From contig JAPLRZ010000047.1 in NCBI GenBank assembly GCA_026398895.1, forward strand, positions 62,001 to 126,000: 64,000 bases of DNA. Direction: 5' to 3'. This DNA is from Methylococcales bacterium (GTDB lineage Bacteria; Pseudomonadota; Gammaproteobacteria; Methylococcales; Methylomonadaceae). Below, in pieces: positions 1,236 through 8,498 of this stretch. Each line of letters begins with the position of its first letter. Within the stretch, counting starts at the first letter, position 1. The notes under the pieces are model-generated. The model was not told the DNA's origin. It saw nothing but the letters and a program-made list of their open reading frames with translations, and searched no databases. Both the position numbers and the translations under genes were made by a program.

Positions 1236-1500
1236 TATAAAGTTTGTCTACGGTATTCGTTAAGTACAGCTTCAAAATATAGCAAAAATTATGCCTAGTA
1301 TCTTATGTCCTTGGAATACTTGCTCTCTGTGCATTCTGCGCAGAGCTGCATTATTTAAACGGCGTGATATAACCTATTCAGTACGGTATATAACTTACAA
1401 TTATTCAGAAAACTATTGAGTATCTGTTTTTTATAGATAAACTACTGTGAGCTATTCCGTTCTGGAATACATTAAAAATACGATTTTTTGAGGAGGTCTT

Positions 1501-3183
1501 ATGTCTAAGTATTATTCCCGTCGTCGTTTTTTAGCCCATTCTAGTGTGGGCTTATTGGCTTTTGCAGGACTGCCGCACGTGTTGCAAGCTATGGAAGGTA
1601 TGCACGGTATGCCCAAAATCAGCCCTAATAAAGCGTCGCCTAATTTTAAACCCGATGTTGAAATAGAACTGTTTTGTAAGCCTAATTGGGTGAGCATTTT
1701 ACAGGGTAAAAAAACATGGGTACAACAATATTCCGCTCGTTTACTACAAGGTCCAAAAGAAACTGTCACTGAAATAGCAGGTTCATATCTAGGCCCGATT
1801 ATTCGTTTAAAAAAAGGTCAAAAAGTCCGTATTCATTTGCATAATGAATTGATACAGCCCACTGTCACGCACTGGCATGGGCTACACGTTCCTGCCAATA
1901 TGGACGGGCATCCACAATACACGATTGAACCCAATGAAACCTTGGTGTATGAGTTTGAGGTACTGAACCGCGCTAGTATGGCTATTTATCATCCGCATCC
2001 CCATGAGCTAACCGCACAACAGGTTTATCATGGCTTAGCGGGTACTATCATCGTCAATGATGAAGAAGAGACTGCCTTAGAATTGCCTTCGGGTGAGTAT
2101 GAAATTCCGATAGTGATTCAAGATCGCCGTTTTGATGCCGACAATCAATTGGTGTATGCAGGACACATGCGCGACCGTATGATGGGTTTTTATGGGGATC
2201 GTGTATTAATCAATGGTCATGCTGATTTTCAACTTGATGTTGCCAGCCGTGCTTATCGCTTGCGGGTATTAAACGGTTCAACGGCACGGATTTATAAACT
2301 GGCGTGGGATGATGGTACGCCAATTACTGTGATTGGTGTCGATGGCGGTTTGTTGGAAAAACCTGAAATTAAACCTTACGTTATGTTAGCTCCTGGTGAG
2401 CGATTGGATGTATGGGCAGATTTTAGCGGTCGTGCCGAAGGTTCTCAGCTTGTTATGCGTAGCGCGGCGTTTTCAGGAGCATTGCCTAAAATGGGCATGA
2501 TGAACCACGGCAGTTTACCTATGGGCAGTGAGTATCCGCTGTTTACGGTGAAAGTAACCCGCAAAGTCAGTGAGAGTCACAGTTTACCTAGTCAATTATC
2601 GAAAATTAATTGGTACAAAGTCAGCGATACCGCTAATCCCAATAAACCTATTCCTATCAGTATTTCCGAAGGACACATGGCGATGGTGCTTAATGGTCGC
2701 CCTTATAAATATGACGATTTGCAAGATTTTGAACGTATCAAAGTCAATACTGTTCAACTCATGGAGATTTTCCATGCGCATGGTGGTATGGGGCATGGCG
2801 CAACATCCACATCAGAAAGCGGCGAAGATCATCAAAGTGGTGGTATGGGCGGTATGAGAGGTGGCATGGGCATGGGACGCGGTGGTATGGGAATGATGGG
2901 CGGTATGGGTGGCGGTATGATGTCTATGGCACACCCGATTCATTTACACGGTCAACAATTTCAGGTGCTTAGTCGTAGTGTTAGCAAAGGCACAGAAGAT
3001 GACTATGCCACTGTGAGCCAAGGTTTTATTGAAAGCGGTTTGAAAGACACTGTGCTGGTTATGCCCAACGAAACGGTACGCATCATTAAGCCATTTCAAG
3101 ATTTCAAAGGCTTATTCATGTATCACTGCCATAATCTTGAGCATGAAGATATGGGCATGATGCGAGATTTTTCGGTCGAATAG
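1501..3183 (+). CDS. Multicopper oxidase with Tat signal and Met-rich insert (CueO/CopA-like)
   Basis: This 560-aa protein starts at an ATG with a strong Shine-Dalgarno (GAGGAGG, about 1490-1496). The N-terminus is a twin-arginine signal (SRRRFLAHSSVGLLAFAG), so it is exported folded to the periplasm. Copper motifs are in the expected order: HWHGLHV (H124, H126), HPHPH (164-168), HPIHLHG, and C-terminal HCHNLEH...M (H542-C543-H544, H548, M553) forming type 1 and trinuclear sites. Before the last cupredoxin domain is a Gly/Met-rich insert with repeated GGMG/GMGM units. In CueO-type enzymes such Met-rich segments bind Cu(I) and support cuprous oxidase activity. Copper detoxification or metal oxidation is therefore likely; the exact substrate is inferred. 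It stands alone, divergent from fecI/fecR-like genes. Confidence 0.92.
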   Translation: MSKYYSRRRFLAHSSVGLLAFAGLPHVLQAMEGMHGMPKISPNKASPNFKPDVEIELFCKPNWVSILQGKKTWVQQYSARLLQGPKETVTEIAGSYLGPIIRLKKGQKVRIHLHNELIQPTVTHWHGLHVPANMDGHPQYTIEPNETLVYEFEVLNRASMAIYHPHPHELTAQQVYHGLAGTIIVNDEEETALELPSGEYEIPIVIQDRRFDADNQLVYAGHMRDRMMGFYGDRVLINGHADFQLDVASRAYRLRVLNGSTARIYKLAWDDGTPITVIGVDGGLLEKPEIKPYVMLAPGERLDVWADFSGRAEGSQLVMRSAAFSGALPKMGMMNHGSLPMGSEYPLFTVKVTRKVSESHSLPSQLSKINWYKVSDTANPNKPIPISISEGHMAMVLNGRPYKYDDLQDFERIKVNTVQLMEIFHAHGGMGHGATSTSESGEDHQSGGMGGMRGGMGMGRGGMGMMGGMGGGMMSMAHPIHLHGQQFQVLSRSVSKGTEDDYATVSQGFIESGLKDTVLVMPNETVRIIKPFQDFKGLFMYHCHNLEHEDMGMMRDFSVE

Positions 3184-8054: not shown

Positions 8055-8090
8055 ATAAAAAAGGCTTAAGTTATAACAACCTAAGCCTTT
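8055..8090 (-). terminator. Rho-independent terminator of the tRNA-Lys gene
   Basis: On the minus strand the stem AAAGGCTTA...TAAGCCTTT (9 bp plus) is followed by a T-rich run (TTTTTTATT). It lies directly downstream of the tRNA 3' end at 8099. Confidence 0.8.
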
Positions 8091-8098
8091 GAGTTATT

Positions 8099-8498
8099 TG
8101 GTGGGATGTGAGAGGCTCGAACTCTCGACCTATGGATTACTTTACTACTTTAGCTTTCACTAACCGCTGATAGTTGGCGTTGTAGTCTGGACTTTCTCAT
8201 CACCCGCCGTGTTAGCGGTTTGGGTGTGCGGCGTTAAGTCTCTGAGGGCTTTCTTAACAGGTTTATACAGATAATCTGTTGTCACAAAAGCATTCACTAC
8301 TGTAACTGTCTGATAATCATTAAAACTTTATTAAGAGTTGCCTGCTGATTGCCCAATCTTCAACATTTTTACGCTGAATGACGTAGTTGAAGCTCTCAGG
8401 GGTTTCCAGCATACAGCTACATTTTCAGTTCATTGTTCCCAATGAACGCTCCTATTTTTGTTAAGAGTCCACTGCTCTACCAACTGAGCTAACATCCC
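8099..8498 (-). tRNA. tRNA-Lys(CUU) interrupted by a group I intron; CCA encoded
   Basis: Exon 1 is 8464-8498 and exon 2 is 8099-8139 on the minus strand. The joined exons give a complete cloverleaf. The 7-bp acceptor is GGGATGT/ACATCCC and the D arm is GCTC...GAGC. The anticodon stem GTGGA/TCCAT closes the loop CTCTTAA with anticodon CUU. The T arm is GAGAG-TTCGAGC-CTCTC, followed by discriminator A and an encoded CCA. The body is contiguous apart from a 324-bp insertion in the anticodon loop between U35 and U36. A terminator follows at 8055-8090. The amino acid assignment rests on the anticodon and the Lys-like body. Confidence 0.9.
8140..8463 (-). ncRNA. Group I self-splicing intron in tRNA-Lys(CUU)
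   Basis: This 324-nt insertion carries the conserved group I core elements in order on the minus strand. There is a Q-like element (CAATCAGCAGGCAAC near 8336-8352), an R element (CTCAGAGACTTAACG) and an S element (GAAAGTCCAGACTACAACG), which form P4, P7 and J8/7. P1 can be drawn exactly: exon bases CUCU plus intron UA pair with intron UAGGAG (8449-8454), giving the required U-G wobble at the 5' splice site after U35. The intron ends in G (8140), the omega-G. There is no homing endonuclease ORF. The class is probably the small tRNA-intron type (IC3-like), but I did not fold it fully. Confidence 0.88.

Follow-up and report, generated by a model that had tools for sequence, protein, structure and literature searches.

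Positions 8099-8498 of the window (the whole stretch of 64,000 nucleotides of Methylomonadaceae DNA analyzed here, from contig JAPLRZ010000047.1) hold a tRNA-Lys(CUU) gene that is broken within its anticodon by 324 nucleotides of other sequence. Is this insert a group I intron, can the gene still yield a functional tRNA, and how did the insert come to lie there? The locus is read on the minus strand, from 8498 down to 8099, as tRNA 5′ half, insert, and tRNA 3′ half, with the following features:

8464..8498, minus strand: tRNA-Lys(CUU) 5′ exon, nucleotides 1-35, ending at anticodon U35 (35 nt)
8140..8463, minus strand: group I intron, first nucleotide U, last nucleotide omega-G at 8140 (324 nt)
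8449..8467, minus strand: P1, exon CUCU (8464-8467) and intron UA with UAGGAG (8449-8454), U35.G at the splice site
8428..8447, minus strand: P2, 8 bp, GNRA loop GGAA (GCAA in G032), one C-G to U-A double change
8416..8421, minus strand: P3 5′ strand, partner 8227-8232, one A.C mismatch
within 8343..8411, minus strand: P4 (8406-8411 with 8343-8348) and P5 (8400-8402 with 8352-8354)
within 8343..8411, minus strand: P5 extension (8386-8392 with 8358-8364) and cap, a pair varying as U-G, U-A or C-G
8247..8342, minus strand: P6/P6a and loop L6 (about 8257-8330)
8189..8246, minus strand: catalytic core, with R element 8232-8246, P8 8201-8226 and P3 3′ strand 8227-8232
within the core 8189..8246, minus strand: P7 (8236-8242 with 8189-8194), bulged A at 8241
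8145..8185, minus strand: P9 (8182-8185 with 8145-8148), P9.1 and P9.2
8099..8139, minus strand: tRNA-Lys(CUU) 3′ exon, nucleotides 36-76, CCA encoded (41 nt)
8060..8090, minus strand: intrinsic-terminator-like hairpin directly 3′ of the tRNA, a consensus match only

The predicted terminator makes a single-gene transcript probable; no match to a consensus sigma-70 promoter was found for the gene. When the two halves are joined in silico, ARAGORN recognizes a 76-nt tRNA-Lys(ctt) with a perfect cloverleaf, and the joined molecule agrees at 76 of 76 nucleotides with the gene in Crenothrix sp. D3, which has no intron and itself scores 73.6 bits to RF00005. Precise removal of the insert, in other words, restores a host tRNA that exists naturally without it. 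The first-pass annotation, made from the sequence alone, had described complete exons with an encoded CCA, and both results bear it out. It had further placed the insert after U35. Four junction placements (a first exon of 35, 36, 37, or 38 nt) give the same spliced product; since U precedes the junction and G closes the intron only when the exon is 35 nt long, we accept that position. The tRNA matches of the 3.6-Mb assembly, which is 91.5% complete, include no second tRNA-Lys(CUU).

The insert matches the group I model RF00028 over its full length with 43.2 bits (E 1.2e-9 for the region, 1.4e-9 for the whole genome), and is the sole such match in the assembly. A covariance score below threshold had been named in advance as grounds for abandoning the group I reading. 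Formally the score does fall short of the curated gathering score of 50 bits, but by significance the match is far from failing, and that reading stands. It is because 43.2 bits lies just under the cut-off that an Rfam scan at the gathering threshold reports nothing for the insert. Against a model built from the lysine introns described below, the window intron scores 326 bits; its folding z-score is −3.0, with 1 of 100 shuffles folding equally well. ARAGORN run without introns detects no tRNA at 8099-8498. Run with introns, it misreads the gene as tRNA-Phe(aaa), with an intron of 320 nt, both in the window and in three related loci (L040, L044, and L046), and calls the same gene tRNA-Lys(ctt) in two others (L039 and L101), an annotation trap. 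Default pipelines are thus blind to split genes of this kind, through the missed Rfam cut-off and the tRNA-Phe call, and the genomes that carry them will seem to be without tRNA-Lys(CUU). One further candidate, a "tRNA-Lys(ttt) with 245-nt intron" at L099, had no match to the lysine-intron model and was rejected.

An explicit model of 72 pairs, spanning P1 to P9 and including the guanosine-binding helix P7 as a pseudoknot, was checked on six introns, those of the window and of the five related genomes introduced below. In these, 98.8% of cells are paired and three pairs have changed on both sides; when the partners are slid by 1-3 columns as a control, 32-44% are paired and no double change appears. 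With three double-changed pairs the covariation is real but thin, as the six introns are closely related. The elements that the first-pass annotation had named, P1 with its U-G wobble, the R element CTCAGAGACTTAACG (8232-8246), and the omega-G (8140), are all present, and the P1 pairing CUCUUA/UAGGAG with its U35.G wobble and the terminal omega-G are invariant across the six. In P9.2, which is capped by GAAA, one pair has changed on both sides from A-U to G-C; its loop, like that of P2, remains GNRA despite sequence change. The A.C mismatch in P3 occurs in five of the six introns and is common to all Crenothrix copies, with a G-C pair at this position in G032. P10 has 2 bp at most. With regard to subgroup, P7 and P3 lie too close together to accommodate P7.1/P7.2, P2 and P9.2 carry GNRA loops, and P5 is extended; IC3 is the usual subgroup for bacterial tRNA introns. 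Between congeners, the core has diverged by 1.6-2.4% (about 97-98% conserved) and L6 by 28-34% (Fisher p 7e-10 to 2e-14), and this conservation of the core while L6 diverges argues that the ribozyme is under selection.

The relatives of the locus place the intron in a wider context. The tRNA adjoins htpG, whose closest counterparts are those of Crenothrix sp. D3 and uncultured Methylococcales. A search of tRNA-Lys genes in related genomes had been proposed at the outset; among 201 genomes of the family, it recovered the same intron in four congeners besides the window genome (G124, G130, G226, and G258) and once outside the genus, in G032. Of the six congeners with an identified copy of this tRNA gene, five have the intron. 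In Crenothrix sp. D3 (L042), a tRNA-Lys(CUU) gene without the insert occupies the corresponding position upstream of htpG, providing a natural empty site, and a locus from G118 (L128) has the same uninterrupted gene. Together with the RF00028 match and the covariation, these homologues and the empty site uphold the identification of the insert as a group I intron. In every feature open to testing it is one, and it presumably splices. On the htpG tree, D3 is nested among the intron-bearing genomes, with support of 99/99 for the group of six and 91/99 for D3 and its sisters, a position that favours either loss in D3 or separate gains; a tree of the introns themselves gave no resolution within the genus. 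The G032 tRNA has a different acceptor stem, T arm, and neighbours, with an intron core 89% identical, and all remaining loci of the family with a readable junction are intronless, as would be expected if only the intron had moved, into tRNA-Lys genes already in place.

Two of the sister introns suggest how such transfer could occur. Those of G226 (UBA4132, L043/L126) and G032 (L127) are 708-709 nt long and have an open frame in L6 (in L043 at 1461-1970, minus strand) that continues through the 3′ core, encoding a protein that matches PF11645 (PDDEXK_5) with E 2.5e-18 (L043/L126) and 6e-17 (L127). The best relative of solved structure for the L043 protein is 2OST ("Putative endonuclease"; E 7.6e-4), which we take to be I-Ssp6803I, known from the tRNA-fMet intron of Synechocystis. 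The copies of this homing endonuclease gene (HEG) in the two genera are 84% identical with a dN/dS of 0.13, which makes it likely that both are functional. The ATG of the HEG and the codons next to it persist in the short introns of G130, G258, and G124 (for example, VVMSDNPNK compared with VVMNNPNK). In the window intron, positions 8262-8285 are the counterpart of these N-terminal codons, with ACA at the position of the start codon; its L6 stretch is 77 nt and holds no intact HEG frame, and this copy would be unable to home by itself. The short introns, including that of the window, look like derivatives that lost the HEG. Deletion of the HEG after fixation is the simplest reading of the residual N-terminal codons and the tree; alternatively, a short intron may have gained the HEG. 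Neither the HEG nor the intron-start pattern was found in viral contigs, the phage relatives of the HEG are only about 28-30% identical, and no relatives were found on plasmids; the phage and plasmid searches thus identified no vector. Nor did 299 further genomes of the phylum, a set without a positive control, contain the HEG.

Taken together, we consider it very probable that tRNA-Lys(CUU) is split by a self-splicing group I intron, one that presumably reached this gene by homing, lost its HEG, and persists as a vertically inherited ribozyme. In the folded pre-tRNA, the CUCU at the end of the 5′ exon would pair with the internal guide GGAG to form P1; guanosine bound in P7 would attack after U35, and the freed U35 would attack after omega-G, ligating the exons, after which tRNA processing would yield functional tRNA-Lys(CUU). 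We infer these steps from the anatomy of the intron and from established group I chemistry. The preceding history draws on the endonuclease and the distribution of the intron: in a tRNA-Lys gene free of the intron, the endonuclease would cut close to the anticodon, where the stem forms an inverted repeat, repair of the cut site would copy the intron in from an intron-bearing allele, and the endonuclease gene would then have been lost in most Crenothrix, the window genome included.

Could the insert instead resemble a group I intron by chance, be some unrelated insertion, or stem from misassembly? The silence of Rfam at default thresholds and of ARAGORN without introns might suggest so. However, the same insert occurs in independent assemblies of six taxa, and the E-value, full set of group I helices, perfect exon junction, and empty allele leave this explanation a negligible probability; we regard it as refuted. 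Archaeal-type protein splicing was likewise rejected, on the grounds of a complete group I core and a bacterial host. A subtler alternative is that the intron has decayed and no longer splices, the host gene being a pseudogene and tRNA-Lys(UUU) reading AAG in its place. A tRNA-Lys(UUU) is present in the genome (L008), and AAG accounts for only 98 of the 653 lysine codons in the long open reading frames of the window. Because this isoacceptor could read AAG, the cell might get by with an intron that no longer splices, and both the P3 mismatch and the subthreshold RF00028 score would accord with decay. The mismatch, however, is common to all Crenothrix copies and is therefore old and tolerated; the exons are letter-perfect, the double changes preserve helices, and the core has been held nearly constant across congeners while L6 was free to vary. 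We judge a decayed intron to be highly improbable.

More weight, if still not much, belongs to a history without homing, in which the intron is old in Crenothrix, was lost in D3, and was also inherited vertically by G032. The presence of the intron in all but one of the congeners with the gene, and the nesting of the empty D3 allele among them on the htpG tree, are what such a history would leave behind. Set against this are the G032 copy, found in another genus within a tRNA whose T arm, acceptor stem, and neighbours differ, the intronless state of the other readable loci in the family, and the persistence of an intact HEG under purifying selection. Purely vertical descent therefore appears unlikely to us, and arrival by homing is the reading carried forward here.

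Bacterial tRNA group I introns have been reviewed from cyanobacteria and from alpha- and betaproteobacteria (PMC4033280). They had been reported in four bacterial tRNA genes by 2007 (PMC1995217), and are known from tRNA-fMet and Ile2 (PMC8450103) and, putatively, from Arg-TCT and Leu-TAA genes in Beggiatoaceae (PMC4853749). A "group I intron" of 37-49 nt has been claimed for a cyanobacterial tRNA-Lys(CTT), that of Gloeocapsa PCC 73106 (PMC5733544); it concerns the same isoacceptor, but a group I ribozyme could not fit in an insert of this length, and the case is not comparable. That Lys(CUU) would be an unusual host had been suspected from the start, and the expectation held. No credible report of a group I intron in this tRNA was found in the searched literature (mostly non-subscription journals), and a survey of some 670 related genomes returned a single further Lys(CUU) intron, which differs in type and lies at site 36/37. 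As far as the searched literature shows, the tRNA-Lys(CUU) host and site 35/36 are new, while the system itself is of a known type; tRNA-Lys(CUU), with its new site, joins the few bacterial tRNAs for which a group I intron is credible.

The closest described parallel is the Synechocystis tRNA-fMet intron, which is 655 nt long and carries a 150-codon HEG for the described enzyme I-Ssp6803I (PMC1995217). Both are group I introns in a bacterial tRNA anticodon loop, and the HEG in sisters of the lysine intron belongs to the same PD-(D/E)XK family (PF11645) as I-Ssp6803I; the present case differs in its Lys(CUU) host, its gammaproteobacterial genome, its insertion at 35/36, and the lack of a HEG in the window copy. 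The introns of Leu(UAA), Ile/Met(CAU), and Arg(CCU) genes share the ribozyme class and the anticodon loop, but in our survey they follow loop nucleotide 3 in Leu(UAA) and loop nucleotide 5 in the CAU and CCU hosts, whereas the lysine intron follows nucleotide 4. The Arg(UCU) introns of Beggiatoaceae and other Gammaproteobacteria are also anticodon-loop introns, in two cases with a PF11645-type HEG (L264 and L265), but they interrupt another isoacceptor after loop nucleotide 3, and their HEG (L152/L153) is only about 26% identical. With Lys(CUU) and Arg(UCU) added to fMet as tRNA targets of PD-(D/E)XK homing endonucleases, the type seems to be more than a cyanobacterial curiosity. The evidence seems to us evenly balanced on a broader proposal: that PF11645 PD-(D/E)XK enzymes are a general class of bacterial homing endonucleases of the tRNA anticodon arm, for which the inverted repeat in the stem serves as a pseudo-palindromic target, so that they carry group I introns into fMet, Lys-CUU, and Arg-UCU genes, with Crenothrix displaying the whole cycle (empty site, intron with HEG, intron alone) in one genus. 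The occurrence of empty, mobile, and HEG-less alleles in a single methanotroph genus makes the gain, degeneration, and loss of a tRNA intron directly testable.

The survey applied RF00028 to 301 genomes of the order and 369 of the class, together with the lysine-intron model, and junctions were classified by the anticodon stem, U33, a U at the exon end, and a G at the intron end. Filters for large sets drop weak matches, the window intron itself being lost by RF00028 there, so that absence from the survey is not proof. It yielded several dozen tRNA introns, most of them in Met/Ile(CAU) after loop nucleotide 5 and in Leu(UAA) after loop nucleotide 3; others interrupt Arg(CCU), Thr(UGU), or Arg(UCU). 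By score to the lysine-intron model (about 50-76 bits), the Leu(UAA) and Arg introns lie nearest to the lysine introns; no lysine intron at site 35/36 was found outside Methylomonadaceae. The second tRNA-Lys(CUU) intron, in L167 (G315; minus strand, match 1501-1740), is 237 nt long, follows U36, and scores 78.8 bits to RF00028. It belongs to another type, and at least two separate invasions of Lys(CUU) have taken place. Group I introns were also recovered after loop nucleotide 5 of tRNA-Thr(UGU) in several gammaproteobacterial families (L156, L158, L161, L164, and L239); we know of no report of such introns.

Other observations concern the Arg(UCU) genes. The introns of L264 (G538) and L265 (G406) carry an intact PF11645-type endonuclease (the L264 protein was scanned, and that of L265 is a near copy), and the surrounding gene cluster also holds tRNA-Pro, -His, and -Lys(CUU). 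In L152 (G391), a free-standing PF11645 endonuclease (ORF 1043-1489 of the reverse complement), with which no ribozyme was found, lies between tRNA-Pro and an intact tRNA-Arg(UCU). In L153 (G661), a group I intron and PF11645 gene (1288-2000) are flanked by the 5′ part of a tRNA-Pro, up to its T loop, and by the 3′ end of a tRNA-Arg; this looks like a deletion that fused tRNA-Pro to an intron-bearing tRNA-Arg(UCU). Finally, four RF00028 matches (L205, L206, L215, and L217) have their 5′ junction in a T-loop-like GTTCGAT and are probably the known tmRNA T-loop introns (PMC11915505).
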